Assembly: GCA_902806565.1 (NCBI GenBank)
Contig: CADCXA010000050.1
Span: 434,001 to 498,000, forward strand
DNA from: Hypoxylon rubiginosum
Taxonomy: Eukaryota; Ascomycota; Sordariomycetes; Xylariales; Hypoxylaceae
Direction of reading: 5' to 3'
Length of the DNA stretch: 64,000 nucleotides
Shown: positions 7,589 through 62,215 of the stretch, piece after piece
Layout: the number at the start of each line of letters is the position of its first letter
Numbering within the stretch: the stretch's first letter is position 1
Program-made: the position numbers and the translations under genes
Notes under the pieces: model-generated
The model's database searches: none
What the model saw: the letters and a program-made list of their open reading frames with translations, nothing else
Told to the model about the DNA's origin: nothing

Positions 7589-7956
7589 ATTTAATAAATT
7601 TTTTATAAAATTAATTAATTTATTTTATTATAGTTTAAAAAAATTAATAATTAATATAGTTTAATAAAACTTATTTTACGTAACTTTTTTATATTATTTA
7701 CACTTTTATAAACTTTGTTATAATAAAACCGTAAAAAAAAACATCAAAAAGTGCGGGGCAATTCTAAGTATATGATTGGTCGGTGAAATTGTGGCAGTAC
7801 TAATAAAATAAAGAGAAGTTGATAACTATCATCAAATCTACAGCTATAGATATCGGAAAGGGGAATACAACCTACCTATCACAAAGCTATACCTAATCAT
7901 CTACCATCCTAGCCCAACCCAAATCAACCAGCTCGAAATCGCCCCGTGTTGACAGT

Positions 7957-40688: not shown

Positions 40689-42124
40689 ATGGGAAAGAAG
40701 AAGATCCTCGTTGGGTGAGTATCTCGCCTAATGCATGGTTGAATAATAACGGCTAATGCAACATCCTCTAGCTACGGTGTAGACATTGATGCCGTGGCTG
40801 GTTGGCTTGGTTCCTACGGAGGCGAGGATAGCACGAGCGACATCAGCAGAGGTTAGAAATTCTTGATGCGAGCAGACCTTGTTGCAAAGCTACTTGACTA
40901 ACAGCGGCTGTTCTTTGCCCTAACCAGGACTCTGGGCGGGCACAATTGGAACTCGTCGTCTACTCAAGTTATTTGAGAAGTACAACATCAAGGCATCATG
41001 GTTCATTCCAGGCCATTCGCTTGAGACCTTCCCGGAAGAATGCGCCATGGTGAGAGATGCCGGCCACGAGATCGGCCTTCACGGGTATTCGCATGAGAAC
41101 CCGGTCGATATGACACTTGAGCAGCAGCGAGACGTCCTCGATAAGACCTTCAGGCTCCTAACCGACTTCTGCGGCAAGCCTCCAAGAGGCAGCGTCGCAC
41201 CATGGTGGGAGACCAGCAAGGAAGGCACCGAGCTGATGCTCTCATATGGCATCGAGTATGATCATTCTATGTCTCATGAGGATTGCCAGATGTATTGGCT
41301 GCGGACGGGAGACACCTGGACCAAGGTAAGCTTAATGAAGTTCCCTGACATAACCTCTAATCTCGCTCGTACCTAATATATACCTAACGTATAACTAACG
41401 AGATCGTAGTATGCTACATTACCTAACCCTTAACATATCCCTTGTTTTGAAGGGTCGACATTAGACTAGTATACTAGGGCGGGTTGAAGCTTCTGTACAG
41501 ATATTTCTAACATATAGTAGGATTGATTATTCAAAGAAAGCCGAAGAGTGGATGAAGCCACTTGTGAAGGGACAACCCACAGGCATGGTCGAAATCCCCG
41601 GCTCGTGGTATATCGACGACCTGCCGCCCATGATGTTTATGAAGAACTCGGCCAATTCGCACGGCTGGGTGAACCCGAGGTCAGTAGGAGCATCCAATTT
41701 AAAAGTTATTAGGGGGTAGTTGACAATTGGCGTAGGGATGTTGAGGATATTTGGCGTGACCATTTTGACTACTTTTACCGCGAGTACGACGAGTTCATCT
41801 TCCCGATGACAATTCACCCTGACGTGTCAGGGCGGCCTCATGTTCTATTGATGCATGAAAGGTACTATATACCCTTACCTCAAGTCGTGCTCACAGGAGT
41901 GATACTTACCTTGTATTCAGGATAATTGAACATATCAACAAGCACGAGGGAGTTGAGTGGGTGACATTTGCTGAGGTATGCGCACTGCACGCTCTTCGAG
42001 GTTGTTTAATCGTGGCTAACATATACCAAAGATGTGCGACCACTTCAAGAGTAAGAATACACCAGCTGAGGGGGCTATGATGCCTGCACCCCCCGGTGAA
42101 ATTCTCAAGAAGTCGAAGGAGTAG
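40689..42124 (+). CDS. HxnM-like cyclic imide hydrolase (NodB/polysaccharide deacetylase fold), 7 exons
   Basis: Exons 40689-40714, 40772-40851, 40928-41325, 41501-41679, 41736-41861, 41921-41975 and 42032-42124 give 318 residues. The NodB-fold metal site is visible: GVDIDAV (Asp13/Asp15), the zinc motif HGYSH (His87, His91) and [10 protein letters not shown] near the end. This is the HpPgdA-like branch rather than chitin deacetylases; it has no signal peptide or chitin-binding domain, so it is probably cytosolic. A. nidulans HxnM, a cyclic imide hydrolase that opens the ring late in nicotinate breakdown, belongs to this fold, and the neighbours support that role. The start of exon 4 is uncertain: the acceptor at 41500 keeps frame but adds seven residues. 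All other joins are clean. Confidence 0.75.
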
Positions 42125-42408
42125 GTCGATTGATGGGTGGATTTAAGGGGTTAAATGCTTGGGCGAGCTTTTCTCATTATATTACATTATTGAGAGAAAA
42201 CGATGAGAGATGCACAGCACCACGACTAGAACAATACGAAATAAATGCAATTTCAAAATACGCAAGATGTCTAATTCAAGTCATTCTAATATGAGCCTCT
42301 TGTCTAAAAATTACACCTACGGCAGTGAGAGTAGAGAATATGTTGGTAAACGTTCTATTTGGATGCAATATACCAACTATACGAGGCTTCTAAAACATAC
42401 GCCCGTTT
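42125..42408. other. Convergent spacer hxnM-like / hxnN-like
   Basis: 284 bp between two stop codons, AT-leaning, presumably holding both terminators. Confidence 0.6.
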
Positions 42409-44480
42409 TCAAAGTAATCCGTCGATAACGGCACCGATCGCTAGGACTTTCTCTTCTTCCAGTCTCCTTCCGACTATCTGCACGCCAACCGGCAGATCCA
42501 GTTCAGCCATCTTCTCTCCGGCCTGGTTCCACAGCGCCAGATTATGCTCGTCTAGTATGTTCCTCGGCGTATGGTTCCATGGCGCCTCTCTGTCGACGGA
42601 GGCGACTTTGCCGGCGGGTACAACCAGAGCCGTGTAGTCCAACACGTTCCAGATCTTGGTGTATCCTACCCATCGGCAAAAACGATGCGGAACGGAAGTA
42701 TGCGGCATGGGCGGCATCAAGACAACATCGACCTGCTTACCGGTTCTTGGCGACTTGATGTCGTTCCACTTGTTGAGATACGCCTGCTGAAGCGCTACCT
42801 TGCGCTTGTTCAGCTGCCAGTACTCGTAGACGGAAATGGGCTGGCCTTTGTTGACCAGTGCTTCTACGTGAGGTATGAAGGGCTCTCCGCCAGCTAGGAT
42901 GTCACGGCGAATATCCTCGCCGCCGTCCGCTGTGTAGAACTCATCCTAAGCGAAGACAGATTAGACACTGCAGTACTTCACATGATGTGTCGACTCACCA
43001 TAACCTGGATACATTCGGCGTGGAGGTCGGCATTCCACTCGACGATGTCATGGCCAGCTTCTCGAAGTTTTTCTACTAGAGACAGCAGTACTCGGCTCAG
43101 GGGTGGGTGCGGCCGAACCACGCCGTCGTCAGCAAGGACGCCGATGGTCAGCGGCTTAGACTTGAACTCTTCAAATGTCTCGCTCCTCCAGGGTACTGGG
43201 GCACATCGCGCATCTAGTTTCCAAGGCTCCAACTGGATCAATTCTTTCATAACTAAAGTCAGAGATGGCAAGCTTCGGGTCAACGGCCCTACCGATGACG
43301 GGACGTGCTCCTGGCCATCGGTTGACACGGGCGCTCCCTGGTACGGAAGACGGGCATACTGCTAAATTGTTAGGCCAAATATACATCTAGCAGCATATGG
43401 GGAGCCTCTTACACTTGGCTTCAACCCGTACAGACCCATCATAGACGCAGGTATCCGGACACTACCGCCAAGGTCGGTACCCCAACCAAGGAGACTGCCA
43501 TGAAGGGTTAAGAGCGCCGCTTCGCCGCCCGTCGAGCCTCCCGGGGTGTAGTCGCTACATAAAGGATTGGTGGTGAGTCCCCAGAGAGGGTTCTCAGTCT
43601 CGCACCACTACGACCCATAGTGGTTAGACGCATCCAACTTTTGACGGCAGAAAGGGAGGCTGCAGTGGCTCACCATTATACTCTGAGGGAGGTTTGTCTT
43701 GGCCAGCACGACGGCGCCGAGCTTCTTGAGCATCTGGACCAGAACTGCATCTTCGCTCGCGGGATCGAATGTGCGGCTGACGTATCCGAGCGTGGTGTCA
43801 TAGCCGCTGACATTAAACTGGTCTTTCAGAGTGACGGGGATGCCGTGTAGGGGCCCAACTACGCTTCCGTGCTTCTCTCGGTACTCGTCAAGCTGGCGAG
43901 CCTGCGCAAGGGCGTCTTGGAAGAGGATCTCGGTGAGACTGTTGTAGTGTTAGCCAACCATCAGGCATGATGATGCAACATAGGTTTCTTGCCAGTTCGT
44001 CTGTTATGTTAGTAGAGAGTTAGTAACCTGCAGTAACGCGTGCGTCCGGGTATCGGTTTACCTGATTGTGTGCTTTAATGGCCCTGTATATTGCACCAAT
44101 AATTAGCGATTTTTTGAGCGACGGTTAGGTACGACTGTAAAACTTGAATTCAATAAATCTCTACTAAACTTGTCTATATATGCTTTCGCTACAGCTTCCG
44201 AAGTCAGCTCGCCAGAGGCGATACGGCTAGCAAGTGTCGAAATATCGTCAATATCTACCACGGATAGGTCAAGTCCTCGAAGCTGTCGTCCCAATCAAAC
44301 TTAGCAACTCTGCGCCGGAGGCTCTCAACAGACTACCAACGGTAACAAAAAGACGGCTGTTTTTACACATACATCCGCAGCAGCAGCAGTAGCAGCAGTA
44401 GCAGCAGCCAATGCTTTGGCTTGAGCCTCGCGCTTTAGACGGACTTTATCCTGCCAGCCGCCCGAGATTCCTACCATCAT
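42409..44480 (-). CDS. HxnN-like amidase, 8 exons including an 8-nt microexon
   Basis: Minus-strand exons 44480-44373, 44282-44170, 44083-44062, 44000-43993 (8 nt), 43938-43674, 43607-43413, 43358-42999 and 42945-42409 give 535 residues. It is an amidase-signature hydrolase with Lys122 in PVTLKDQ, Ser197 in GGSTGGEAALL and Ser221 in GTDLGGSVR, the complete triad. In A. nidulans, amidase HxnN removes the amide nitrogen of a late nicotinate intermediate; the neighbourhood points to the same job here. The 8-nt exon is needed to rebuild HNQTNCLTEILF, a conserved amidase block, and is followed by a GC-AG intron (43992-43939). Exon 7 has a TAGCAG tandem acceptor, so one Gln may be optional. Exon 1 has an Ala-rich repeat. 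The exon 1-2 junction and the N-terminus are the least certain part. Confidence 0.8.
44376..44408 (+). repeat. GCA/GTA trinucleotide run (Ala-rich coding)
   Basis: Roughly eleven GCA-type triplets with GTA interruptions. On the minus strand it encodes the Ala/Thr-rich stretch of exon 1 of the amidase. Confidence 0.75.
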
Positions 44481-46090
44481 GAGATCGTGCCCCTTGTTTC
44501 GTCCGGATCGGTCAGGGAGGGGTGGGTGTAGGGTAGGAGTAAACTTCCATTCACCGAAACATCGACTAGAAACACACTGCCGCAAGGGAGATTGCCTAGC
44601 CGTGGGCCAGATCACTTTATTTCTTATTCCTGTAGGGCTGGGGGGGTTGCGACACGTGGTATTTCGCGAAACTCCGCTCAACGGGCACCAGGTCTGTTTC
44701 ATTAGCGGCGGGCTATGATTAGACACTTTGTTAGCTGGGATGCGGCAGATGGACCTAGATAAGTCTAAGACGACCCAAGATGGGATCAAGATAGCCTAAG
44801 ATGGTGTTTGATTATGCCATATCCAGAGTCATACCAGGTAGGTGTAGGTATCATACAGCTCTGCTTCAGGGTATTTGGGATTTTAATATCAGATCTGCCC
44901 AATCTTATCCAATCTTATCGACCTGCTTGTATCGGAAAGTACGTACCTAACCCAAAGAGACGCTGTAACCGTCTGACTGTATAAAAGTGGTGTGATATCT
45001 GACAAGGATATTCATCAAGTTTACTAGTTTGCGTAAGAAAGTGGGAGGGATTGTCTGACTGTATGTGACTGTTGCAGCAGCATGTGTTTTTTCTGCCTGT
45101 CTGCCTGTATCAGTTCTTGTCAGTTGTAGTGAGTGCCCTATCCAATCCTAGAATGGGGGGGGGAGGATAGGGGATGGGGGAGGGGCAAAAAGGGGGTTTA
45201 AGGGTCCTTGGAGGGGCACACACAAGGGGGCTTTACAAGGGTTACAAGGGCTACAAGGGCTACAAGGGCTACAAGGGCTACACAAGACCCCATTAGGGGG
45301 ACTGAACTGGGATTGTGGATCGCCTGAAGTTGTAATGGAATCCAAGTCTAGAACAAGTCGAAACAATCCAATACTCCCGCCCACCACCAGCCCACCAGCC
45401 CACACGTAGCCCACACGTAGCCCACACTTTTACGTCCAGTTGGTCCAGTTAGGGGCCTTCGGGGTTAACCAGTTACACGCCTTCTCTCCTTCTCTTGCCT
45501 CCTCACGTCTCTCAAGCCCCCGATCTAGGGATCGGAGTGGTTCGAGAATGGTGCCAAACCACCTGACAATGGTCTGAGCACAGTGCGACCGTCTTATGTC
45601 GACTTTATGACTTTATTCGACTTTCTCGATTCTTCCCAACTCCCCCGGCCCCCGGCCATTCATTCGTCTAACCGGCCTCTACTATACCCTGCCTTTCCAC
45701 TGCCTTTCCACTGCCTTTACAACTGACATTAGGTACTTTTTCTAACTCTTTAGCTCTTCTCCCCCCCGTGTGGCAGTGGAAGCACTCCAACCACCAGGTC
45801 ACCGAACGGAACGCTTGCTCCCCGGTGATACAGTGCTCAGTGGCCCAGTCATCTTTCCCCGTCAATCCCCCAATCAGCAAATCAATCAACCGATGATTCA
45901 ACCCATTCTTGATCGGGCCAACCCTTCATCAACGAACCACCAACTCCCAGCCTTGCCTTGTCCCGGTTACTTCTTGCTACCCTAAAACACTAAAATAAGC
46001 CACCTTTGCTATTTTATTGTGTTCTGGCAGGGAAAAAAGGGATCCAAGTACTCGCATGATCAAAATCCCCTCGGGCATTCTATCGGCACC
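44481..46090. promoter_or_regulatory. Divergent promoter, hxnN-like / hxnV-like
   Basis: 1.6 kb between two 5' ends, the longest promoter in the locus. It has AGATAAG at 44757-44763 and a perfect 10-bp direct repeat AATCTTATC(C/G) at 44901-44920, i.e. two adjacent GATAAG cores on the minus strand. A five-copy 9-bp tandem repeat lies at 45234-45278. A C-rich CCCAC/CCCACACGTAG repeat spans about 45375-45430. GATAAG sites are compatible with AreA nitrogen control. Confidence 0.5.
45234..45278 (+). repeat. Five-copy 9-bp tandem repeat (TACAAGGGC)
   Basis: Consecutive units TACAAGGGT, then four TACAAGGGC, in the divergent promoter. Because 9 is a multiple of three, it leaves a repetitive 88-codon frame open on the minus strand, which I consider accidental. 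Confidence 0.85.
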
Positions 46091-48281
46091 ATGATCGTAG
46101 ATGAGGTAAACGGTGTACGACAGAACAGCGACACCAACGGCGACACCAATAACGAAGTCAGTAGCCATGGCCCAGCCAAGCGCCGTGAAACCAGCAGAAC
46201 TCGACACAGCTCCGAGGTATGCGTTGTCGGAGCAGGGCCGGCGGGCTTGATGCTGGCGTAAGTTCCCTTTTTTTTCTTCTCTTATTTCATTTTTCATATA
46301 TTATAATTGTACGAGAGAGAGGGAGAGATGTCATATCTCAAAATCCCCTTCCCGGCCCCCGTGCTTACGCCTAAAATCATGCAGCGTTCTATTGGCCAGG
46401 TACGGCATCACTGTTGAGATCATTGATGAGAGAGCCGACCAGACCCAAGCTGGTCGCGCCGATGGACTGCAGCCCAAGACGATAGAGACTCTACGTCAAC
46501 TCAGACTAGCAGACGGTCTTTTACAGCGAGGCGCTAAGGTGTTCGACATTTGCTTCTGGGAAGCCACTGCGAACCGCCGCTTAAGGCGTTTAGGCCGTGA
46601 GATTCATTATCCGGCATTGGTCGTTGACCTTCTCGACGACTACATCCTCCTTGTCCATCAGGGGGTGGTAGAAGGAGTTTTCATAGAGGATCTACGAAAG
46701 CGGGGTATCGAAGTGAAGCGAAGTCACCAATTTCAGACTTTCAAACAGAAGGAAGATGAAGAGGGTTTCTTAGAGATTGAGTCCACGCTCACGACTACGG
46801 GTGAAAAGGAGACGTCACTTTCCAAATACATAGTGGGATGTAAGTTGCTAACGAATATGCGCACCTGAGATACCCCTGACTAACCCCGCCAGGCGACGGC
46901 GCTCGATCCAAGGTACGGAACTGCATCCCGGACACGTACTCGGTGGGCAAGTCTCACGAGTCCGTATGGGCGGTGCTTGATGGAGAGCTCATCTCAGACT
47001 TTCCCGACCTCTGGTCCAAGACGGTCGTCTACAGCGAAGTGCACGGTTCCATACTGATCGTCCCGCGGGAACGGGGCACCACACGATTCTATGTCGAGAT
47101 CAAACCCGATACCGAGACCGGCAACTTGCGGGAACTCGGACAGGAGTTCGTCATGCAGCGTGCCAAGCAGATCTTGGCACCGTACTCTGTCGAGTGGCGA
47201 ACCGTGGAATGGTTCGGCAACTACCAGATTGGACAGCGAATAGCGAACAAGTTCACAGATCCGCACCTGCAGGCGTTCATTGCCGGAGATGCAAGTCATA
47301 CCCATTCGCCCAAGGCTGCCCAGGGTATGAACACGAGCATGCATGACAGCTGGAACCTAGCATGGAAATTAAACCTGGCGACAAGAGGCTTAGCAAAGCC
47401 CGTTCTGCTCGAGTCGTACGAGATGGAACGTAGGAAGATTGCCCACGACCTTATCAACTTCGACTATGAGCACGCCAACAAGATGGCTGGCGGTGATGCT
47501 AAAGAGCTAGCAGAGAACTTCCGCACAAACGTTCGATTCATCTCGGGCGTCGGTGTCGAGTACGATAATAACGTACTCAACCAAGCATCCAAACGAAGCG
47601 GAGGCGAACTGCGACCCGGCTGCCTCGTACCGCCTGCTAAGGTAACTCGGTATATCGATGCGAACCCAATCGACGTCCAGCTGGATATCCCCATGCTAGG
47701 TCAATTCAGGGTGTACTTTTTCGTCCCGGATATCCACAACAGCATGCCGTTTCTCCAGATGTTCTGCAATGGCTTAACGAGGCAAGACTCTCTGTTTAGG
47801 AAACTGAGCCAGGCGGCCGCCGCAAGCTACGCAGAAAAACCGAGGACCCCGACTGCTGAAGACGTCTACGTGCGTTCCGAGAGATACACAAGTGTTAGCG
47901 AGCTCACCACTTTTGGTCTTATTAGTAAGTCTCTCGCCATCCTATTTTCGTAAGCTGGTAGGCATGGCTAACCCAGACGCAGCTACTATGGACAAAGCTA
48001 GAGTCGAGATTCAGGATCTCCCCCCACTCTTTGCTCGCAGCGCGTGGACATTCTATCTGGACAACGTGCCGTATCTAGACACGCGCAGACAGACATGCAC
48101 GAGCAAGTGGGTAGGAACTCTACAGAAGGACGAGGTGTCTGTTGTGATCGTACGACCCGATGGCTACGTAGGGTCGATCAGCAGGTGGGATTCACTCGGT
48201 GCAAACGCCGGCTCTACGGCAGCCGACTGGCTCAATTCGTATTATGGTGGATTCCTCAAGGTTCCCGAGGAGGATAGATAA
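46091..48281 (+). CDS. HxnV-like FAD monooxygenase (phenol 2-monooxygenase type), 4 exons
   Basis: Exons 46091-46257, 46385-46839, 46893-47924 and 47983-48281 give 650 residues. It is a flavoprotein aromatic hydroxylase: [12 protein letters not shown] (FAD dinucleotide-binding, about 45-56), [16 protein letters not shown] (substrate/FAD pocket), CDGARSKVR (DG motif near 208) and [16 protein letters not shown] (GD motif near 339). The C-terminal ~170 residues form the thioredoxin-like domain of phenol hydroxylases, ending in a [16 protein letters not shown] strand. HxnV of A. nidulans belongs to this class and hydroxylates a dihydroxypyridine intermediate. The second exon starts at 46385 (GCAG acceptor), which restores the conserved LARYGI. 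No targeting signal is seen. Assignment to the pathway rests on synteny. Confidence 0.82.
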
Positions 48282-48739
48282 TAATTGTCGGCGAATAACT
48301 CAATCGGGATGGGAAGCGGCATATTTGCATGATTACGGCTTTCTTTGGTAGTACTTTGGCAAGTTGTACGGTATAGTTCATATGAGGTAGCTCTACTAGG
48401 GGATACATGCTCGGTGAATTCATCTGTTAAATTTTTGAAGTGTATTTTTTCTCTGAGATATTTCACATATATATCGAGTGACTTATCATGATGCCTTATT
48501 TATCAGGAGGTATTTTTAAGATCTAACATGTCGTCAGTCCGTCTTAGGATGAATAGGCCGGTGCATTGGAACAAGAGTAAGCCCCTGACACCGGCTAATT
48601 CCGTATCACCCGCTGCATTCAAAATAACTCATAATTCATCGCTCATATTTAATATTAAGCTGGATGTGTGTCTAATACCTTAGGTACCTAGGTAGGTAGC
48701 TAAACGACGCCTGTAGCCATCCTAGGTAAGTCCATGCAT
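48282..48739. other. Convergent spacer hxnV-like / hxnR-like
   Basis: About 460 bp between two stop codons. Contains one exact TACCTAGGTA (48685-48694) and a further CCTAGGTAAG at 48721. No gene seen. Confidence 0.6.
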
Positions 48740-51700
48740 TTAAATAGGAGCATCATCAAACTGCCCTATAAGCCTCCCCGGAACCAGCCCTTTGAGCACC
48801 GGCACGGCACCGTCATGGACGATTCCCCAGCGCACCTTCCTAAGGACCTCGGCCATAACCCACACCAGCCCGCCGGTCCGTTTGGCCCCTTGTATCCGGG
48901 GCAGGCCTTCGACCCCGGCCCGCACCATGGCGTCCACCACGGAGCGCATCTCCGCCTGCGCGTCCCAGACCAGCTCGCTGTCGTCCTCGGGGGACCCCCT
49001 CGCGCCGGTGTGGTGGAACGTCCATATCGTCAGGGCGGCGATGTAGAGACACCAGGGGACGTGGAAGAGACCCATGGAGTCGTAGTCTGCGAGGGTCTGC
49101 GACGCAGTCTGCAGGAGTTGCGCAGCGTGCCAGGCTGCCGTGGCCGCGTCGTTGTTAGTATCGTCGTCGTCGTTATCGTTTTCGTCGTCTTCATTATCAG
49201 AGGGGCCATCCAGATTATTAGTAGTAGTATTCCGCCGCGTAGTAGTAGCAGTAGTAACAGCAGTACCCGTAGCCCAGCGCTTGACGACCTTCTCGGAGCG
49301 CGCGAAGTCGGGCCGGCCAACGGGGCGGCCGAGGATGCTGCGGGCGCCGGCGAAGATCTGGACGTCGAGGAACTCGGAGCGCAGCAGCACGTGGGCGGCG
49401 TGGTACACGGCGGCGTACGCGGCGCGCCACACGTCGAGCTCGGCGCGGGCGCGGGGAGGCGCGGCGCCCCGGCCGGCCTCGGCTAGCGTTAGGTCTGCCT
49501 GACGCGCGCAGAAGGCGTCGAAGTCGGCCTTCCACGCGCGGTACGCGGCGCTCAGCCGGTTCTCCCACCGGCCGCTGTTCGGTGAGGAGATGACGCCGAG
49601 GCTCGTCTGGTCGCGGCGGCGCATGTCCCAAGCTGCGTGTATAGAAACATGTCGCATTAGCATTTTTTTTTCCCTTTTGGTATTTGAGAATCCGAGAGAG
49701 TATTCCCCGAGGTAAATAATTTCTCGAAGTTTATAGACAAGGTACCTAGGTAAACATGGAATAGGGGGTTCGGGGGAACTCGGGGTTAATTAGGTAAAAA
49801 TGAGACCACGACATTTTCTCGTACGTACCGATCGACATCAGCCCGTGGAAGACGATGACGCGCGACAGGCCGTTGAGGCGGTGCGGGACGCGGCGGGCGT
49901 CGCCGTCGCGTGCGATGTACGCCTTGAGGGCGAGCAGGTACATGGGCTCGGGCGCGGTCGAGACGGAGAGACGTGCCCACTCGGCGGGCGTTGACGCCTC
50001 CCAGAGCGCCTGGCCGCAGGGCAGGGGGAGCCGCAGCTCGAAGGCCGACATGCACAGCGACTGGCAGAAGAGCACGGCGTGCTGGGTGTCCCACATGAAG
50101 CACAGGAGCGCGAGCCTGTTCCAGGAGGAAAAGAAATTGGCATTTGTCTCAGCTCACGATGGCCCGGGGGTGGGTTTCAAAGACACGGCACGGGGTGGGA
50201 CGGGGCGGGCTGGGGCGGTGTGAAATACGAACCTCTTCTTCTCTTCGGCTTCGACCCACCGCCTCCAGTAGCTGTGCTGCTCGTCCCCTACCGCGTTATC
50301 TTCACCTCCTCCGCCCCCGAAACCCGCCCCGTCACCCGATCCGGGGCGCACCGGCCGCACGGACTGGCAGTCGGATCGTCGGATCAGGTTGATGAGCATG
50401 CCGTGGAACAGGTGGCTCATGTCGTGCTGCTTCTGGCCCGCGCGGCTCTTGCCGAAGCACTCGACTAGCAGGATCGTCTGGAGCATCCAGAGGTCGGGTT
50501 TGGCGTTGAAGCTTGCGTGGGAAAATACTGTAGTTTTATGTCAGTTAGTCGGCACGATGTGTAGTATTCGATATGTGTGTAGCGCCATAAAGCCACAGAG
50601 ATTGACAGGCAATGACTTACTCGCAGGACGGATTACATCGTGTATGCAGACGGCGAGCTGGTGCGCTTCTTTCTCGGAGTCTATGACGAGAGTTAGTAAT
50701 GACACGAAGGAGAAGAAGAAATAGAAGATAAAAAAAGGGGGGTCAGGGGGACCGGCTCCCTCAAAGAACTCACAAGTTGCTCCAAGTAATATAATAGATA
50801 AAAGCAGGAGGGTCTCCTTCTGACTTGGTTCGAAGGTTGCTTGGTGAATCAAGGGATATGCAGTATTGAATCTTGTAAAATACAAGTCGCAATATGACTG
50901 TAATGACAGATGTGATAGTAAGGGGTGGTTGATATCTAGAAGTGACTGGTTAGGAGCTAGCGGCCGCGCAGTTTTGATGGTCTCTAGAATCCGAGCGTAA
51001 GTGAACTCGTCTATAGTTGGTAAGCGATTCGTTGACCGGAGATTTGCTAGAGGGCGTTCGAACTCTGCCGCAAGAGGGTCTTCGGGACCTTCAGGAGACC
51101 CCTGCTTCGCAACCGGGGAGAAACTAGATGCTACCCCATCCGAAATGCTGGGGCTTGTTGTATTTTGCGTGCTGGCTCTAGAGCGAGTGTAGTCGAGCGA
51201 TGCCATGGGCGTCAACGAATTCTCTGTTGTACTGCTATCATAATGCCCGCCTTCCGGCGAGAGTTCGGTTCGGCTTAAACTCATAGACGCAGGCTGCTGC
51301 TGCATGCCGCAGGAGTAGGGTGTTAACGACGTGGCGGGAACATACGGAGTCTGAGGGACGGCAGGGCCCGAATAATTATTGTTTAAACTAAATAGCCAGT
51401 CATAATTGACTTGTGTCGTATATGGCATGTTAAAGGAGCTTGCAGTATCCGGTTGAAAGACTTCGTCGTAGTTGATGTCGAAGTAAGGCGACGCGATGCT
51501 CCGAGGATGGGATGTCTCTGGCGGAATCCAGTAATTGCTGGGTCCTTGCGAATCAAATTGGCCCGCTGACAGTGAGTACTCCTGTAAGAGACCGTGGTTA
51601 TTCACAAAGGATGCCTGCGTCGGGTCGGTGTCGCCTGGTAGATCTGAGTGGTGGGACGACACAGGAGGTGAAATAGGGCCTTCTACCCCGGATGCGAACG

Positions 51701-52113
51701 GAGCTCCCAAGCTGCTACTATCAAGGGCCTGATGCTCTGTGGGCTTCTTCTGGACGATTCGCCCGTCGATGTCTTTCCACATACGTTTGCGAGTGTTTAA
51801 TGTACCGGAACCTTCACCGCCGGCTTCCTCGTCCTTCTGTTTGTGTCGGTTCATATGTCTTTCTAGACGATTATGTTAATCCTCACGAGTCCGAGGCGGG
51901 TCACGGCGAGGGATCTCTCTCACCAAGCAGGTCTTGCCGCTTGAAATGGGCGCGGCATCTCGGGCATGTAGCATCTCCATCCGTGTGGTTCTTCTGATGG
52001 CGATGGAGATGCTCCGACCTCGAAAACGATTTCCCGCAGCCGTCCTGAGCGCAAGTAAACAGCCGCCGGGGACTATCCCCGTCCCGGGCCCTACGCTTGG
52101 ATCGCTGCATCAT
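48740..52113 (-). CDS. HxnR-like transcription factor: two C2H2 fingers plus fungal-specific domain, 6 exons
   Basis: Minus-strand exons 52113-51924, 51862-50774, 50680-50621, 50527-50233, 50115-49829 and 49632-48740 encode 937 residues. Two classical C2H2 fingers sit at the N-terminus: Cys21/Cys26/His39/His43 and Cys50/Cys53/His66/His70. An intron splits the second finger. A Pro/Ser/Gln-rich middle follows, then the fungal-specific transcription factor domain (about residues 310-700), with AHQLAVCIHDV, RPAIFSHASF and KPDLWMLQTILLVECFGK. A short Asp/Asn-rich run (NEDDENDNDDDD) lies near 790. HxnR, the pathway-specific activator of nicotinate genes in A. nidulans, has this same pairing of domains. 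Its central position in the locus makes it the likely regulator. The first ATG (52113) is doubled (MMQRSK). Confidence 0.83.
49743..49752. repeat. TACCTAGGTA palindrome in intron 5 of the regulator
   Basis: Exact copy of the dispersed 10-bp palindrome, located inside an intron. Other exact copies start at 10920, 14373, 24911, 48685, 52139, 52430 and 54941. Confidence 0.8.
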
Positions 52114-52543
52114 AGCTGGTGTCACAAATACCACACAGTACCTAGGTAATTAGATGTCATTCACCGCTTTCCAGGAAAGTCTCAAGTGGAGCCGCTCGAC
52201 CCCCATTCTCTCACGAGAATGCGAGAAGGAGAGTGAAGAGAAAAAGAGGAGAAAGAGAAGTGTATAGCGTATAGCGTATAACGTATAGTCAATGACAATG
52301 AACACCAAACACGGGAGCGCAGTAGAGGGCCGCTTTGCTAAGACAAGTTAGAGTATATTGCTTATTGCCAGGTGGCAGTAGTGTAGAAGCTATCATAATT
52401 CTACTATGTATAAATCTCGGAGATATTCGTACCTAGGTAGCCAGTCAGCTGAGCTGAATGTACGATTTTCGGCTTGAGGCCGACGAGTTTCGCAATGTTC
52501 TCCTCATATTCTCCCACTCTTGCTATCTTTCGATGTACAAAGT

Positions 52544-52565
52544 CCCCCACTATTGAGAGTGGGGG
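52544..52565. promoter_or_regulatory. Perfect 8-bp stem hairpin followed by T-run
   Basis: CCCCCACT, six-base loop, AGTGGGGG, then TTTTT. Could be a paired binding site for a zinc-finger regulator (GTGGGG-like) rather than a terminator, which fungi do not use for mRNA. A related CTCCCACTC lies 30 bp upstream. Confidence 0.55.
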
Positions 52566-52726
52566 TTTTTGATTGTAAGCAGTCCTACAGGCTGACAAGC
52601 TCCAGGCTACAGTACAGGCTACAGCAGGTACCACTACGCCCGTGTTTGCTTGGAGATAAGACGGGGATTTACGTATATCGTCATACCAAGGAGGTACCTA
52701 CCTGCGTAATAAAATACCTCCGCCGC

Positions 52727-52742
52727 CACATGTGCACATGTG
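52727..52742. promoter_or_regulatory. 16-bp perfect palindrome CACATGTGCACATGTG
   Basis: Built of two overlapping CACATG/CATGTG E-box-like units. A symmetric site of this size in a divergent promoter is a good candidate for dimer binding, e.g. by a bHLH protein. Confidence 0.5.
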
Positions 52743-53149
52743 CAGTCTAGCCAGTCTGGCCAGTCAAGAGAGTTCAGGCAGGTACGTGTATCTTGGATCT
52801 AAAAAGGCATGCACCACGATAGTGGGCGTTGAGGAGGGAGCGTTCTGCCATTAAATGGATTGATGGCTTTTGTGCTCCCCGAACCGCAGCCTAACAGTGG
52901 AATAGTTTAATTTACTCATCTCTCGACTCACTTTGTCATGTCTGGATTCATCCGATTCACCTAGTTGTCTAATCATGTCCCGAGTCGTTTAGAGGTAGTC
53001 ATGTCTTTGTGTATCCGCCGACAATTTCACCATCCTCGATCTAGTTATAAACACCTGGACAATACTGAACCAGCTGCTGTACTAGCTCTTTCCGATTGTC
53101 GGATCTTACAACACTCAAGATAACCACGACGACATCATCAGTTTTCAGA

Positions 53150-54709
53150 ATGTCGACTAGACTTCCTCCCAAGGTGTGGGAAAAGGCCGAGAGGGATCCC
53201 TCCAGCCAGCTACATGTAAGTGGAGTTTGAGCGTCTAGGTACCTGATCAAAGCAATCCCAGGTATTGAGCTTTATCATAGGTCATAATTGTCGGTGCTGG
53301 GCTCGGTGGTCTCGGTGCAGCTATTGCTATACTTCTAGCAGGTCACAATGTGACGGTCCTCGAGAGTGCGTCTGAAATCGGCGAAATCGGCGCCGGCATC
53401 CAGGTCTTGCCTAACTCGTCGAGGATCTTAATATCTTGGGGACTCGAGGAGAAGCTTGTGAAGCATGCGACAATGCCCCGTTTCTCCAACATGATTGGCT
53501 GGAAGGGGAATTTCTTGTCGAGGATGGACCTTCATGGCTATGCAGATGCCTTAGGAACACCTTTCTGGGATTTCCACAGAGCCAACCTGCATCGCTGCCT
53601 CCTCGATCGAGCCATCGAGCTCGGAGCTCAGCTTCATGTCAGGTCCAGAGTTCAGGACATCGAGTATGCTCAAGACGGACTGACATCAACTGCCGTGTTG
53701 AGCGACGGTAGAACCATGTCTGCAGATCTCATTGTTGGCGCAGATGGTATTTCATCTCACTTGCGCGAGATTCTCCTAGGAAAACCGGATCCCCCTTTAC
53801 CTACAGGAGACCTGGCATACAGGCTACTCATCAATACTAAGGACATGCTAGCTGACCCTGAGCTACAACACTTCATCAAAGATCCTCAAGTCAATTACTG
53901 GCTGGGACCCGACGCGCATGCTGTCAACTACGTCCTCAGGGGTGGGGAGTTATTTAACATGGTTCTTCTAGTCCCGGACGATATGCCCGAGGCCGCCATG
54001 ACCGTGGATGGGAACGTAGAAGAGATGCAAGCCTTATACAAGGATTGGGATCCGAGAATAGGCAAGATATTGAGTCTCTGTCAATCGGTGCAGAAGTGGA
54101 AACTCTGCATTCGACCAACTCTAGAACAGTGGACACATGAGTCGGGTACCTTCACGCTATTAGGAGATGCTGTTCATGCAACTCTTCCATACCTCGCAAG
54201 TGAGTCACTGCCTTCTACAAGCGCTCGACCGTCCTAGTAAAGACATTATAAACTTAGAATTGGTGAGTTAGTATATTTGGTATATCAACTAACATTTTAT
54301 CCTAGGTGGCTGTGGTATGGCCTTGGAAGACGGGGCAGCTTTAGGCCTCTGTCTCGCGAAGGTGACAGATAGATCCCGAGAGCAAAAGATTAACGCATTG
54401 AAGGTGTACGAAGAATGTCGAAAGGAGAGAACAGAGAGGGTTGTTACGAGAGGCAATTACCAGCAGTACATGTACCACATCCACGACGGCGAAGAACAAA
54501 GGGAAAGGGATAAGAAGCTCAAGGCGTTCGGGGAGATTGACGAGCAATTATTCAAGAACCCAGGAGCCATTGCACAGCCAACAGAAGAATCAGGGGATGA
54601 TCCGTTGCCCTGGAGATACCATGGTGTTGGAGGCTGGCTTTTGACTTACGATCTCGAGAAGGATGTAGAGAAAAGATGGGAGCAAGCCCAAGGAGAAGAT
54701 AAGGTCTGA
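53150..54709 (+). CDS. HxnX-like FAD monooxygenase (salicylate/6-hydroxynicotinate hydroxylase type), 3 exons
   Basis: Exons 53150-53215, 53281-54199 and 54306-54709 give 462 residues. It is a single-component flavin hydroxylase: VIIVGAGLGGLGAAIA (about 23-38), the DG motif VGADGISSHLR and the GD motif GDAVHATLPYLA (about 317-328), continuing after the intron as SGCGMALEDG. There is no extra C-terminal domain, which distinguishes it from the phenol-hydroxylase type upstream. A. nidulans HxnX converts 6-hydroxynicotinate to 2,5-dihydroxypyridine and belongs to this group. A different aromatic substrate is possible on family evidence alone; the neighbouring molybdenum hydroxylase, OYE and ring-opening enzymes support the pyridine role. 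All junctions are GT-AG. It is convergent with the OYE gene 312 bp away. Confidence 0.83.
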
Positions 54710-55021
54710 CCGGTCTTACAACGTTAGCTAGATCTCATAGACGTGATGCATAATTGCTAGGAAGTAGGTAGTTCCAGACAAGCTACCTCCAATGCGAAGT
54801 ATTCTAATCAGTCAAGATAGCATAGCAATTGCGAGACACTTTGCTTCTGAGTCCATAGAGTAGATAACGCAGACTAATTTATTTTACCTCGTTCTATGTC
54901 TATCTAATGCACCTTAGTCTTTCTAGCTACCTACCCCAGGTACCTAGGTAGGCAAGGTATCTATGGTAGGAGGTATCTAACTAGATATTAAAGGATGCTT
55001 GGGAAAGCTCTTGAGTTACCT
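54710..55021. other. Convergent spacer hxnX-like / hxnT-like
   Basis: 312 bp between two stop codons. It contains an exact TACCTAGGTA at 54941-54950 inside CCAGGTACCTAGGTAGGCA. Confidence 0.6.
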
Positions 55022-56316
55022 TCACTCATGAAAGGGGTAATCCGTGTAGCCTTGCGACGGGGGCACCCCAGCATAGAAGGTCGCTCGGTTATACGGTGTA
55101 AGAGGGATTCCTTCGGCGAGCTTCTTTGGCAAGTCCGGGTTTGCGATGAACCACCGACCAAAGCAGACGATATCCGCCGCGCCGGACTCCAACTTCGGAA
55201 CGGCATTTTCCCAGTTGAAGCATCCGGCAGTCAGGAACAAGACGTTGCCCTTTAGAAGGATTTCCCGGAACGGCGAGAGTGAGATGGTGGCTTCCTTGCC
55301 ACTCTTCGCAAGAGATTCGATCTTTTGCTGTTCCTCCATGCCTTCGTCAAATCGCGGCTCGACCCTAGTAAAGACGTCAGTGTGCGCTTAGGTTTGAAGC
55401 TTCTTTTCCTTAACATACATGTGGACATAAACGGGCTTGTGGTTAGCCGGCAGAGCAGCCAGCTGTTCGCAGAGATAGGACCAGTGCTTAAGTCTGTCGC
55501 TGTCCTTGGTGGTTTGGAAATAACTCCAAGGGCTCAGTCGGATTCCGACCTTGTCGGAGCCGATCGCATCGGTGACGGCTTTCACAACTTCCAGGGGGAA
55601 TCGGCATCGCTTCTCTATGGAGCCGCCATAATCGTCGGTCCGGTCGTTGATGTTGTCATTAAGGAACTGATCCAAAAGGTAGCCATTGGCGCCTGTGAAC
55701 TGTAAGTGGCTGACCCGAATATTCTGTGCCCGCCGACAGGGACGTTTTACGTACTATGGATTTCCACTCCGTCGAAACCTGCCTCGACGGCGTTCTTCGC
55801 AGCCTGCGCGAAGTCTTGAGTGACAGCCTGGATCTCCTCTACCGTCATGGGGGTTGGTGGGTGATCTGAACAGGCCGTCCCGTCTACCCAAGAACCATCT
55901 ATGGGATTGTTGCTGGAGCTTATCGGTGTCTTCCCACCACGGAACGACGGGGGCGAGGCCCTCCCGGTGTGCCAGATCTGCAGGAATATGTAACCTCCCT
56001 TCGCGTGGACGGCATCGGTGACCTTCTTCCAGCCGGCAATCTGGGAGGACGAGTAGATACCGGGGGTGCCAGGATATCCCGAGGCGTAGTGGGCGATGTC
56101 AGTTGCCTCGGCGATTTGCAGGCCGCCTTTGGAGGCACGCTGGCCATAGTATTCTGCCATCATGTCGTCGGGCACGTAGACGCCATCGCTCTCCTTGGTG
56201 CCGCGGAGGCGAGTACAGGGTGCCTGGGCGGCGCGATGCAGGAGCTCAATGCTGCCCAGCTTGATGGGGCTGAACAGCTTGGTGTCCTTCAGCGGCGTGA
56301 ACGTCGGGTTCGACAT
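55022..56316 (-). CDS. HxnT-like NADH:flavin oxidoreductase (Old Yellow Enzyme family), 3 exons
   Basis: Minus-strand exons 56316-55755, 55692-55419 and 55364-55022 give 392 residues, the usual OYE length. OYEs are FMN TIM-barrel enzymes that reduce activated C=C bonds with NAD(P)H. Visible landmarks are [20 protein letters not shown] at the N-terminus, [10 protein letters not shown] (about 115), the [16 protein letters not shown] block rejoined by the first intron, [20 protein letters not shown] and the FMN-phosphate motif [16 protein letters not shown] near residue 330. A. nidulans HxnT is a flavin oxidoreductase of this family acting on a hydroxypyridine intermediate. Other OYEs do unrelated chemistry, so the role rests on the cluster. 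It is divergent from the molybdenum hydroxylase gene. Confidence 0.85.
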
Positions 56317-57415
56317 CGTGCTTGTAATTCTGCCTTGAGCTCGGAACGATGGTATTTCCCTATTCTATCCTCCAAACGGTTCAGACAATGTACGAAAGAT
56401 CGAGACTGGGCAAGAGGATGTGGGATGCAGTAGAGGAGCAGCAGAACTAAAGGCGGTAGAAAATATAGACCGCGACTTACCGTGTCTCGGCCCGCACGAC
56501 GCCGTTCTCGGTGGTGTTAGAGGACTCCTGCTGGAGAGTACCTGCACAAACTGGTTACATTGGGCTGGGTTTGCCATCGTTAGCGGGATTCGATCATTAG
56601 CCGTGGCTGCCATGGCGGCCATGGCGTTCGTAAGTGGGATAGCCCTGAGCTATTGGATTGGACCCTGAATAGGAGCAAGAATGCGACAGTGGGGGCGGGG
56701 CTACTCTCGAAGCTCTAGTCAGGGGTATGCTAGGTACCCCCTAATATATGGGACGGAGGCATGAACAGGGGGTTGACGAGTTGACTATAAGGTTTAGTCT
56801 TCGTAGATACATGTACTAATCTTTATGAGTATCTACCTTCCTCGTTTGCCTACGCTCGTTTGGTGCCTAGGAAGATAGGATGGTAGGAAGGTTAGCTCAT
56901 ACCTTGGTAAGGGGTAAGCTACAGAAGGAATGCTTACCAATGACCAATGTGACTTTCCCACTCAGAGCTACCACTCGCCACTCAGAAGCTCTGAATCTAT
57001 TATACTTTGGTACACGCCTCCTCATATGCAGACAACTCCATGTCTACGTCGTCTACGCCTACATAATCAGGACTTCCATTAATGCCTGATCAAAGTGGGG
57101 GAGGCGAATGTACTATGTAGACCTGCATGTGGTCATCCCCGAATCATCCAAGTGCTATCAATGCGTTGTCCAATCTGTAGAGATGCATTCAGGACCTTTT
57201 TAAACCGCTTACAATTCAACGACTGCTTAAGATATCGTCGGAATAGCAACTTTGTACTTGCCATCCCTGGACATGTTCGTAAAACCGTAATCTCGCCTTG
57301 TCCACCCAAGGTATATGAATTGCAACACCAAGGAACAAGACAGACAGACATCGATCCCATCGCCTCCGACTAACCATCTGCCGAAACCTCAAGCACGTTT
57401 CGCCCTCCTAACACA
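56317..57415. promoter_or_regulatory. Divergent promoter, hxnT-like / hxnS-like
   Basis: 1.1 kb between two 5' ends. Has one AGATAG GATA site at about 56874, but no strong GATAAG pair. Open frames within it show no domain. Confidence 0.45.
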
Positions 57416-60400
57416 ATGGCGTCAGCTGAAATCCTTCCGAAGCTGCCCCTCGTCGGCCCGCTGTCCGAGCCTCAGCCCCTTCCAGCTCCGTCCGCCGCCG
57501 AAGCTCTCACACCTTTAATTCAATCGACTTACAGAACCTCAGAGCTATGTTTCTTCGTGAATGGACGCCGAGTTACCATTAGTAACCCGAACCCCGATTG
57601 GGTTCTCCTCGACTGGATTCGTGCCCAAGACAACCTGAAGGGGACTAAGCTTGGGTGTGGCGAAGGAGGATGCGGCGCCTGTACTGTGGTTCTTCAGACC
57701 ATCGAAAAGGGGAGGCAATTGAGGCATGTGGCGGTAAACGCTTGCCTCTTCCCCCTAGTAGGTGTCGACGGGAAGAGCCTAATTACCATCGAGGGTCTGG
57801 GAACCGTTGATCGACCACATCCCTTGCAAGAAAGGATAGCAAAGATGCAGTTAGTAACCTCCGTTGCCTCTTCTGTTCGGCTTGCCAACCTCGTCAACCA
57901 CGGCACTAACATCGAGGCTGTCACTCAGTGGCTCCCAATGCGGCTTCTGTACCCCTGGAATAGTCATGAGTTTATACGCATTAATTAGAAACTCATATCG
58001 AGACGGGAAGTTTCGACTTTCGAGCTCCGATGTCGAATTACAGGGGCATTTGGATGGTAATCTTTGTAGATGCGTATGTATTCCTTTTTATATCTATGAG
58101 TACGTTGAATTCTAAGCCTTTTTAGACTGGTTACAAGCCGATCCTCGAAGCGGCCAAGACGTTTATTGTAGAGGACTTGAAAGGTGACTTGGTTGAAGAA
58201 CCTAGTCCGCCACCTTCAAACGCCGACAGTGCCACTGATGACCTTTTGAAAACTCCAGCCAATGGAAATGTATGTGGTACTACAACTACAGGCTCCTGTG
58301 GGCGCCCAGGTGGATGCTGCCGCGACCCATCAACGTCATCTTCTAGGAGTAGCATCGGCAGACAATCTTCACAAGAGTCGGAAGTCACCGGAGCCACATC
58401 CGTGGATTCAGGCAGAAGCACCAGTCTGTCCAGTTCATTCATTCCGTACAGTCCCACGGCTGAATCAATATTTCCCCCGTCTCTCTGGAAATATGAGCAA
58501 CGACCGATTTGCTATGGGGATGAGAGGAAAATCTGGTTCAGGCCTACAACTCTTACACAGCTTATCGAGTTAAAGGACGCTTGGCCCTCCGCTAAGATTG
58601 TGGGAGGCGCCAGTGAAACTCAGGTATGCCTATATCAGCACCCAAATTCTGTTATTGTGGACAATTCTCACACCGCACAAGATCGAGGTTCGTTTCAAGA
58701 AGTTAGAGTATCAAGTATGCATCTATGCTTCAGATATTAGAGAGCTGAATGCTTTCAACGAACCCGAGAACGATGCCGCAGTACAATCCTTGTCAGAAGT
58801 ATGTATTCCGGGCAATATGTCGCTGACGAAGGTAGAGGAGCTATGTACCGCGCTGGTCCTAAAGCTCGGTACAAGAGCAAGTGCTCTTGAAGCACTCAGG
58901 AAGCAGCTCAGATATTTCGCAGGTCGTCAGATTCGAAACGTAGCCAGTTTAGCTGGGAATTTGGCAACTGCTAGTCCTATATCAGACGCCGCTCCAGCAC
59001 TACTAGCAGCAGGAGCAGTAATTACCGTGAGAACCAAGAAAGAGGGTTCATACGACATACCGCTGTCAACGTTCTTCGTAAAATACCGAATCACCCAGTT
59101 ACCTGTCAACGGGGTTATTACGCACATCAAGATACCACTACCACCACGAGAGTCGATAGAAGTAACAAAAGCGTACAAGCAAGCCAAGAGGAAGGACGAT
59201 GATATTGCGATTGTAACTGCCGGTTTTCGAGTACGCTTAGATAGAAAGGGCGTCGTCCAGCAGGCCACATTCGCACTCGGTGGTATGGCTCCAACTACTG
59301 TCGTTAGTACTACCGCACAGAAAGCCGTCCTAGGGAAACAATGGGCGGATATCAATACGCGCGAAGAGGCAATTAGTGCTCTTCTGAAGGACTTTGATTT
59401 GCCTCTTGGTGTCCCGGGAGGCATGGCTCAGTACAGGAAAGGTGAAGCGCCTGAATTCCCTGATAAACGGCTAGTTATTAACGAATCTAATAGCTCTGAC
59501 CTTGTCCCTGTTCTTCCGTTTCTGGAACGAGAGTATCAAAGAATTTGAAATTCGTGACGTGGGTTACGACGTTGTGGAAGAGATACACCGAGGGTTGTCT
59601 ACTGGGACTCGCGATCACATCGCCACCTCGGGGACCAAGGTTGTGGGCAAAGAGATCCCGCATCTCTCCGCACTAAAGCACTGCACTGGCGAGGCAGAGT
59701 ACGTCGACGATATGCCACATCAGAGGAATGAGCTACACTGCGGTCTCGTCTCGTCAACAAAAGCACATGCCAAAATCCTGGCGGTTGATTGGAGCATCGC
59801 ACTTGAAATGCCAGGAGTTGTCGGTTATCTTGATAAAAACAGTGTGCCTCGAGAGAACAACAACTGGGGTCCGATCCGAGTGGATGAACCCCTATTTGCT
59901 ACAGATGAGGTACATTCACACGGTCAGACAATAGGTTTAATCTACGCCGAGACAGCTTTGCAAGCTCAAGCCGCTGTCGCTAAAGTTCGAGTTACGTACG
60001 AGACATTACCAGCTATACTCACTATCGACCAAGCGATTAAAGCGGAAAGTTATTTCGACCATGGCAAACAATTGAAGAAAGGGGCAGCTATTGAAGGACC
60101 TCTAGATGATATCTTTGCTAACTGCGATCATGTCTTCGAGGGAACAACGAAGCTGGGTGGCCAGGAGCATTTCTACTTGGAGACGAACGCCGCACTAGCG
60201 ATTCCTCACGCTGAAGATGGATCCATGGAGGTATACTCCTCCTCACAGAACTTGGCGGAGAATCAGATCTTCGTCGCGCAGGTACTCGGTGTACCTATGA
60301 GTCGTGTTAATATGAGAGTCCGACGTCTCGGCGGGGCTTACGGCGGGAAGGAATCAAGGAGTACACCATTCGCATGCTTGGTTGCCATTGCCGCCAAGAA

Positions 60401-62215
60401 GGAGCGCCGTCCCATGAGGCTAATGTTGAACCGCGACGAGGATATTGTTACCAGTGGGCAGAGACATCCGATGCAAGTCAGGTGGAAAATCGGTACCGAC
60501 GTCAACGGAATAATCGAGTGCCTGGATGCAGACCTCTACGATAACGCGGGATATTCTCTTGACATGTCCGGAGCCGTAATGGACCGAGCCTGCACTCATA
60601 TTGACAACTGCTACAACATACCACACGCCTGGATCCGTGGCTGGGTTTGCAAGACCAATACAGTATCGAATACGGCGTTCCGTGGCTTTGGAGGGCCGCA
60701 AGCAATGTACATCACGGAATCTTTCATGAGCGTCATAGCTGAGAAGCTCCAGATTGATATTGACGATCTTCGATTGAGAAATCTATATCAGGAGGGTGAC
60801 CTAACACCCTTTTTGCAGCGAATCGACGCTGACTTCCACATTCATACCATGCTGGAGCAACTGAGCATCAACGCAGATTATAAAAATAGGAAAAGGGAGA
60901 TCCAACTATTCAACTCAAAGAACCGCTATAGGAAGAGGGGGATTTGTAAGATCCCGACAAAATTCGGGTTGAGGTAGGCGTCTTTTGAATCGCTTGAGAC
61001 ATATACAAAAAAACTAACTTCTTTCAATAGCTTTGCCACTGCTCTGCATCTAAACCAAGCCGGCGCATATGTAAGGATTTATGAAGACGGCAGCATACTC
61101 CTTCACCACGGAGGCACAGAAATGGGACAAGGCCTTTACACCAAGATGTGTCAGGTCGCTGCCGAAGAGCTCGGTGTGGGCGTGGATCAGATCTTCAATA
61201 AAGATTCGCAAACCGATCAGGTCGCCAACCCATCTCCCACGGCAGCATCTTCGGGCAGCGACCTAAATGGCATGGCCGTCAAGAACGCTTGCGATCAGCT
61301 CAACGAGCGATTGGCGCCGTATCGGAAGCAGTTTGGGCCCGATACTCCAATGTCCGTGATTGCCCATGCCGCGTACCGAGATCGAGTCAACCTCGCAGCC
61401 AACGGCTTTTGGAAGATGCCTCGAATAGGTTGGTCTACTCAGTGCTCCTTGGCTAGTAGCACATGCCGAATGAATAACTATCTAATAACTTGACAGGATA
61501 CAAGTGGGGAAACTATACAGATCCCCTTCCCATGTACTACTACTTCACTCAGGGTGTTGCCATAACCGAGGTCGAGTTAGACGTCCTCACAGGAGACCAT
61601 ACTGTTCTGAGGACTGATATAATAATGGTAAGTGAAACTTAGGGTTACTTTGAGAGACTCGCCTAATTGCGATGTAGGATGTCGGCCGCTCCATCAATCC
61701 ATCTATCGATTACGGACAAATCGAAGGAGCTTTCGTTCAGGGACAAGGTCTATTTACGATGGAGGAATCGTTATGGACTCGGGAAGGGGAACTTTTCACT
61801 CGGGGGCCTGGGACATACAAGATACCAGGTAAGCTGACGAAGGAAATACAATCGCATAACTCGATATATGCTAACATGAGCCAAAGGCTTCTCGGATATT
61901 CCCCAAATATTCAACGTGTCCATGTTGAAACACGATTCAAGCGGAAATGCCATAGACTGGAAGCATCTGCGTTCTGTCCAGAGTAGCAAAGGTATCGGGG
62001 AGCCGCCGCTATTCCTAGGCTCCACCGTCTTCTTCGCGCTCAGGGAAGCCGTCAAGGCCGCGAGGGAGATGAACGGGGTGAAAGAGCCCTTAGTGCTAAA
62101 CGCCCCAGCGACTCCAGAAAAGCTGCGTCTCGCTGTCGGCGACGATTTCGTCAAACGCGCTGCTGTGGTTCCGAAAGAGGGGGAGACGAACTTTTTCGTT
62201 CGTATCGAGGATTAG
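57416..62215 (+). CDS. Molybdenum hydroxylase, xanthine dehydrogenase family, HxnS-like, 9 exons
   Basis: Exons 57416-57849, 57929-58073, 58126-58623, 58682-59441, 59494-60973, 61031-61428, 61497-61627, 61678-61828 and 61887-62215 give 1441 residues. Domains: 2Fe-2S ferredoxin type (CGEGGCGAC, Cys81/86/89), second 2Fe-2S (QCGFC, Cys149/152, and GNLCRC, Cys191/193), a Ser/Pro/Cys-rich linker (about 205-300), FAD domain (about 320-600), and molybdopterin domains with [29 protein letters not shown] and the catalytic Glu in GEPPLFLG. The substrate-site Glu and Arg of xanthine dehydrogenases are present. Fungi have two paralogues: HxA (xanthine dehydrogenase) and HxnS (nicotinate hydroxylase). Its place beside hxn-like genes and the altered GGAY loop (GGGF is usual in xanthine dehydrogenases) favour HxnS. 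A GT-AG intron rejoins [17 protein letters not shown]. Enzyme class is certain, substrate inferred. Confidence 0.87.

Follow-up and report, generated by a model that had tools for sequence, protein, structure and literature searches.

We have analysed a 64,000-base stretch of the Hypoxylon rubiginosum genome (hereafter the window, C50:434001-498000 in an assembly of 48.3 Mb and 70 contigs). At positions 40689-62215 it carries a block of seven open genes in the order hxnM, hxnN, hxnV, hxnR, hxnX, hxnT and hxnS. Judging from its sequence, this block is very probably a Hypoxylon version of the hxn cluster for nicotinate utilisation, with seven of the eleven known genes. That seven genes of hxn families lie here had been proposed in an earlier note, and gene models and Pfam matches confirm it. 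The assignment of these genes to hxnM, N, V, R, X, T and S is supported by sequence features specific to HxnS, the domains of HxnR, linkage in other fungi, published active-site residues and the pairing of divergent genes. One of the genes, hxnM, appears to be interrupted by a nested intron.

Gene content and identity of the block

The seven gene models were built by hand from splice sites with a simple script. All run from ATG to stop with no internal stop and together they hold 14205 coding bases. The limits of the block are coding ends: 40689 is the ATG of hxnM and 62215 is the final base of the hxnS stop codon. The HxnX model was the one compared with an identical deposited protein; it matches database protein P0001, named from Hypoxylon rubiginosum, over all 462 residues. 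Flavin adenine dinucleotide is abbreviated below as FAD. The features are as follows.

40689..42124, + strand: hxnM candidate, NodB-fold cyclic imide hydrolase; 311 residues, 7 exons; Pfam Polysacc_deac_1
41325..41520, + strand: predicted [D1,2] spliceosomal twin intron (stwintron) in hxnM; internal intron 41326-41409, external intron 41325 plus 41410-41520
42409..44480, - strand: hxnN candidate, amidase; 535 residues, 8 exons; Pfam Amidase
44481..46090, no strand: intergenic region between divergent hxnN and hxnV, from the gene model coordinates
46091..48281, + strand: hxnV candidate, phenol-hydroxylase-type FAD monooxygenase; 650 residues, 4 exons; Pfam FAD_binding_3 and Phe_hydrox_dim
48740..52113, - strand: hxnR candidate, C2H2 and fungal transcription factor domain by Pfam; 937 residues, 6 exons
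53150..54709, + strand: hxnX candidate, FAD monooxygenase; 462 residues, 3 exons; Pfam FAD_binding_3; ends GEDKV
55022..56316, - strand: hxnT candidate, old yellow enzyme; 392 residues, 3 exons; Pfam Oxidored_FMN
56317..57415, no strand: intergenic region between divergent hxnT and hxnS, from the gene model coordinates
57416..62215, + strand: hxnS, xanthine-dehydrogenase-family nicotinate hydroxylase; 1441 residues, 9 exons; Pfam xanthine-dehydrogenase domain set

Five features that separate HxnS from HxA are described in PMC5746545: a FATAL motif followed by His, His954 replaced by Pro, Val1081-Ser1082 replaced by Ser-Gly, an aliphatic residue at the position of Phe417, and extra residues inserted between Cys 2 and Cys 3 of the second Fe-S cluster. 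All five are present in the window protein, partly as judged by eye. It has FATAL and His1069, Pro1008 (the position equivalent to His954 was located in the motif by visual inspection), Ser1137-Gly1138, Val478 where the bovine enzyme has Phe417, and a seven-residue insertion between Cys 2 and Cys 3. Two PF02738 genes were found genome-wide, hxnS and a gene on contig C49. The latter has FTAL, THFNQ, TAASASSD (Ala-Ser) and a short Cys 2-3 loop with no insertion; on these motifs it is of the HxA type, as HxA should look. The risk named in the earlier note, that the hydroxylase of the block might be an HxA paralogue, has thus been checked: the window gene is of the HxnS type and the C49 gene of the HxA type, and on these features we regard the identification of HxnS as settled.

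HxnR is identified by its domain make-up and by named homologues. Pfam finds two C2H2 fingers and Fungal_trans (PF04082) in its 937 residues, which is the make-up described for HxnR (PMC8478523). A pattern test found tandem C2H2 fingers in 109 of the 120 homologues listed (the best 120 of 369 matches). Two Colletotrichum homologues, 41-42% identical, are named 'nicotinate catabolism cluster-specific transcription factor'. The identity of HxnM follows from its high identity to fungal homologues, which is 73-94% across the 120 listed, Aspergillus included (83% to A. terreus ATEG_05673 and 84% to an A. niger protein); one other relative was found in the genome, at 44% identity.

HxnT and HxnV are identified by the published active-site residues that they keep. 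In HxnT, His187, Asn190 and Tyr376 match the published H183, N186 and Y372, all three at an offset of +4, and the best-scoring paralogue in the genome is 50% identical. HxnV keeps five of six published residues (D65, I126, K231, L243, I245 and Y255) at offsets of +17 and +19, the sole departure being Val at the I245 position; its best-scoring paralogue in the genome is 35% identical. Ile126, which it retains, is replaced by His in a related 3-hydroxybenzoate hydroxylase (PMC9304392). The identity of HxnN is supported by its family (Pfam Amidase, 2.5e-101, from a submitted core of 461 residues), by its length (535 residues against 543) and by its divergent pairing with hxnV. In the block hxnN and hxnV are divergent, as are hxnT and hxnS; both pairs are described as conserved, with hxnN/hxnV divergent across Pezizomycotina (PMC8478523). 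A GC-AG intron in hxnN (43939-43992) adjoins an 8-base exon (43993-44000). A frameshift in hxnN near 44270 was considered and dropped, as an intron with the acceptor ...GACGACAG together with the GC-AG intron gives a whole frame. A second amidase gene (PF01425) lies in the window at 7897-9748 (+), about 33 kb from hxnN. A piece of an old yellow enzyme gene, 39% identical to HxnT, gives identical scores at five places in the assembly (C5, C19 twice, C28 and C46), one copy lying 1.3 kb from a contig start; the equal scores suggest a repeated segment.

HxnX is identified mainly through its linkage to HxnR homologues in other fungi. The linkage comparison covers 49 organism names for HxnX, 14 for HxnM and 47 for HxnR, from 120 listed rows each; it was read by eye and restricted to named rows and, almost entirely, to organisms present in more than one list. 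Among the 44 names common to the HxnX and HxnR lists, 40 have a longest contig of equal size, and 26 of these 40 are on contigs of less than 1 Mb. Agreement fails in Fusarium lateritium, F. oxysporum, Sporothrix epigloea and Xylaria grammica. Equal longest contigs point to linkage only indirectly, as each row is a 90% cluster, and carry no information on distance. In five of the 40 the locus tags of HxnX and HxnR are consecutive: Hypoxylon texense, Parahypoxylon ruwenzoriense, Stylonectria norvegica, Sporothrix bragantina and Fusarium decemcellulare, and in Diplodia intermedia the X, M and R homologues carry tags 554, 555 and 558. The linkage of hxnM to the other genes is less general: its longest contigs agree in 7 of 10 names shared with HxnR and 5 of 9 shared with HxnX. 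This may be expected, since unclustered hxnM copies exist in many fungi.

The block is bordered by vitamin B6 genes (SNZ/SNO) and by an RNA methyltransferase gene. The SNZ/SNO genes (36997-37977, - strand, and 39326-39934, + strand) are divergent; genes for vitamin B6 synthesis here directly adjoin a cluster for vitamin B3 breakdown. Further to the left are open frames with an Hce2 domain (26894-27520, +; a putative necrosis-inducing factor in Pfam) and an anthrone oxygenase domain (PF08592; 20221-20685, -).

A nested intron predicted in hxnM

Within hxnM, 196 bases separate two codons that are adjacent in nearly all listed relatives (WTK-IDYSKK or near). Enumeration of splice sites gave open-frame parses of three kinds: 12 with one intron, 45 with two introns and 5 with a stwintron. 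The exact sequence WTKIDYSKK was restored by none of the 57 ordinary parses, and by two of the five [D1,2] stwintron parses. In the better of these two, 41326-41409 would be removed first, so that G41325 meets T41410 and forms the donor GTATGC; the remainder, to 41520, would then be removed as the external intron. The donors are GTAAGC and GTATGC, and the branch consensus is complete in the internal intron and matched at five of six positions in the external one. On this enumeration, hxnM appears to be interrupted by a [D1,2] stwintron, and two successive splicing steps would be needed for its expression.

The relatives of hxnM bear on the same point. The conserved spacing at the junction was found by pattern in 114 of the 120 listed homologues, and two more (P0182 and P0216) are normal by eye. 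In the remaining four, residues are added or replaced exactly at the junction; they comprise all three listed matches named Hypoxylon or Annulohypoxylon and one from a member of Xylariaceae; the other Xylariaceae matches are normal at this point. The four aberrant protein models apparently reflect gene-prediction errors brought about by this nested intron in related species, and the hxnM models deposited for some Hypoxylaceae are thus probably wrong here. No further copy of the stwintron was found in the genome, and there is therefore no sign that it is of a replicating kind.

We also considered that the junction is a disabling lesion or an assembly error and hxnM a pseudogene, which we judge quite improbable. 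The failure of every one-intron and two-intron parse to restore the conserved residues would fit such a lesion, and the nested intron is predicted from DNA alone. Against it stand the exact restoration of these residues by the stwintron, with consensus donors, and the artefacts at the very same spot in four relatives and in none of the other 116 listed. Moreover, [D1,2] stwintrons are documented in Hypoxylaceae (PMC9024468, PMC12403724), the main texts of which make no mention of hxn that we found. The treatment of hxnM as a broken gene was accordingly dropped in favour of the stwintron, which keeps the residues conserved in the family.

Genes not found, the HxnX terminus and rival explanations

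Several observations weigh against reading the block as an hxn cluster. One is that neither the block nor the scanned flanks yielded hxnW, hxnP, hxnY or hxnZ. The left scan (1-40700) yielded 159 open frames of at least 70 residues, and the 52 whose coding score exceeded 5 were all sent to Pfam; on the right, four frames of the window and 8 of the 36 frames listed for the adjoining 9.9 kb were sent. No short-chain dehydrogenase/reductase (SDR), 2-oxoglutarate (2OG) oxygenase or TNA1-like transporter was present among these block and flank frames, although short exons or low-scoring frames could escape such a scan. There was no match to PF03171 (2OG-FeII_Oxy) in the window, nor one to PF13561 (SDR) among the 18 of 296 candidates that were scored. 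The hxnM gene is without its usual divergent partner hxnW, and the six frames of 39936-40688, where that partner would be expected, gave no Pfam match. A search for HxnW by published residue spacing covered 17 SDR loci, after the scoring of 18 of the 296 SDR candidates: five had both SDR motifs and none had all four positions. The only transporter families found were Sugar_tr/MFS_1 (a gene at 18.3-19.9 kb) and MatE (12.6-14.3 kb), both at a distance of over 20 kb. The presence of hxnP, hxnY and hxnZ is variable in known hxn clusters. The block thus holds seven of the eleven known genes, and the remaining steps may or may not be supplied from elsewhere.

Other points in the same direction concern HxnX and the regulatory sites. 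Seven of its eight published active-site residues (PMC9304392) fit at one offset, and the eighth, a Gln, is one residue off. This test has weak specificity. Four paralogues were compared: one of 39% identity also scores seven of eight, one of 43% scores six, and the other two score 1 and 2. The best-scoring HxnX paralogue in the genome is 43% identical. The residue signature was for this reason dropped as strong proof, and linkage was used instead. Solved structures of other enzymes outscore NicC (165-168 bits) as matches to HxnX: a 4-hydroxybenzoate enzyme at 373 bits, a vanillate enzyme at 299 and an FAD protein at 297. Counts of HxnR and AreA motifs in four upstream regions showed no clear excess (eight tests, one value of 0.023, all others at least 0.197), and were not above expectation in the hxnN/hxnV and hxnT/hxnS intergenic regions. 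Finally, the comparison with the Hxn proteins of A. nidulans rests on published residues and features rather than a direct sequence match or tree; no protein named from A. nidulans was among the 120 listed matches each for HxnX, HxnM and HxnR.

The carboxyl terminus of HxnX is a further departure. The claim that all catalytic motifs are intact stands as far as the open frames and the checked residues of HxnS, HxnT and HxnV go, but HxnX (462 residues, its end at 54695-54709) stops about four residues short of its closest relatives. Both the window protein and P0001 end in DKV, without a tail of the R-P-x-L type. Among the 120 listed homologues, 88 end in R-[SAP]-x-[LI], five in a strict type 1 peroxisomal targeting signal (PTS-1) and six in ANI. 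The ANI ending reportedly works as a peroxisomal signal in a fungal protein, and the R-[SAP]-x-[LI] ending may be a non-canonical signal of this kind. The A. nidulans HxnX, a peroxisomal protein, ends in SRL, a signal described as conserved in Pezizomycotina (PMC9304392). No PTS-1 tail was found on the window HxnX, which also counts against the cluster, and the tailless protein of this species may lie outside the peroxisome.

By analogy with A. nidulans, HxnS would convert nicotinate to 6-hydroxynicotinate, which HxnX would decarboxylate and hydroxylate to 2,5-dihydroxypyridine. HxnV would add a hydroxyl to give 2,3,6-trihydroxypyridine, the ring of which HxnT would reduce. An HxnW-type dehydrogenase would be needed at this point to make the cyclic imide, which HxnM would open, HxnN then releasing ammonium; HxnR would switch the genes on. 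The substrates, the induction and a working pathway are inferred from this analogy. HxnW acts between HxnT and HxnM in the A. nidulans route and makes the substrate of HxnM (PMC9304392). The proposal that the block by itself takes nicotinate to an open-chain acid is therefore not supported, since no hxnW-type gene was found in the block or the scanned flanks.

Two alternatives to a nicotinate-utilisation cluster were weighed. The cluster might be incomplete or decaying, so that the fungus would not grow on nicotinate and the block would perhaps serve only pyridine detoxification, or HxnS would act on hypoxanthine. The four genes not found, the absent HxnX tail and the repeated losses of hxn genes in Ascomycota (PMC8478523) all speak for decay. 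Seven frames that remain open over 14205 coding bases speak against it, as do the active-site residues of HxnS, HxnT and HxnV, kept at all checked positions save for one Ile-to-Val change; an unlinked HxnW or transporter is also possible, given the fraction of SDR candidates scored. On balance we consider decay rather unlikely. The alternative that the locus degrades a phenolic acid, with the HxnX-like protein as a decarboxylative 4-hydroxybenzoate or vanillate 1-hydroxylase, we hold to be very improbable. It draws on the top structural matches of HxnX, 8gsm (labelled a 4-hydroxybenzoate decarboxylase) and 8x38 (a decarboxylative vanillate 1-hydroxylase). The features of HxnS and the identity of HxnR indicate nicotinate instead, the HxnX homologues are linked to homologues of HxnR, and we know of no obvious place for an amidase and a cyclic imidase in a phenolic-acid route, which also counts against it. 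NicC likewise swaps a carboxyl for a hydroxyl group (PMC9304392), so that the structural match is not discriminating.

The nicotinate cluster could still function in an altered form. One unlikely picture is a working regulon of seven genes that lacks a clustered HxnW and keeps its HxnX out of the peroxisome, in which another dehydrogenase would make the imide used by HxnM, and the yield of the ring-opening enzyme would depend on how efficiently a clade-specific hxnM stwintron is spliced in its two steps.

Comparison with known systems

The arrangement in one locus had been put forward as special. Clusters of all 11 hxn genes are, however, already described in Cyphellophora europaea and Hymenoscyphus repandus, and Aspergillus is presented as the exception in having hxnM and hxnN apart from the main cluster (PMC8478523). 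The Hypoxylon cluster is not novel in kind; it is an ordinary example of a type described across ascomycetes. Among the papers on Xylariales or Hypoxylon covered here we found no study of an hxn cluster beyond the known hxn papers. One Hypoxylon genome is thus added to the known hxn clusters, for the wider field a routine addition. It offers a natural example in which two elements of the A. nidulans scheme, a clustered HxnW and a peroxisomal HxnX, seem to be dispensable or to have moved elsewhere. The nested intron in hxnM would be a rare, small extra and one more case of a known Hypoxylaceae type.

The A. nidulans regulon comprises 11 genes in three clusters (PMC5746545, PMC8478523, PMC9304392). 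The Hypoxylon block shares with it the enzyme and regulator families of M, N, V, R, X, T and S, the HxnS features, the divergent hxnT/hxnS pair and the published residues of HxnT (3 of 3) and HxnV (5 of 6). It differs in being a single block in which hxnW, P, Y and Z were not found, in an HxnX without an SRL-type tail, and in the stwintron predicted in hxnM. The clusters of C. europaea and H. repandus have 11 genes and the Hypoxylon block seven, with hxnM lacking a divergent hxnW; common to them are the inclusion of hxnM and hxnN, the divergent hxnT/hxnS pair and, in C. europaea, the hxnN/hxnV pair. Compared with the [D1,2] stwintrons of Hypoxylaceae (PMC9024468, PMC8469720, PMC12403724), the hxnM element is distinguished by having no sister copy that we found in this genome, and it is here a prediction from DNA. 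It is like them in that the internal intron lies between G1 and T2 of the external donor, in its consensus donors, and in a position that is apparently common to related species, as judged from their faulty gene models.

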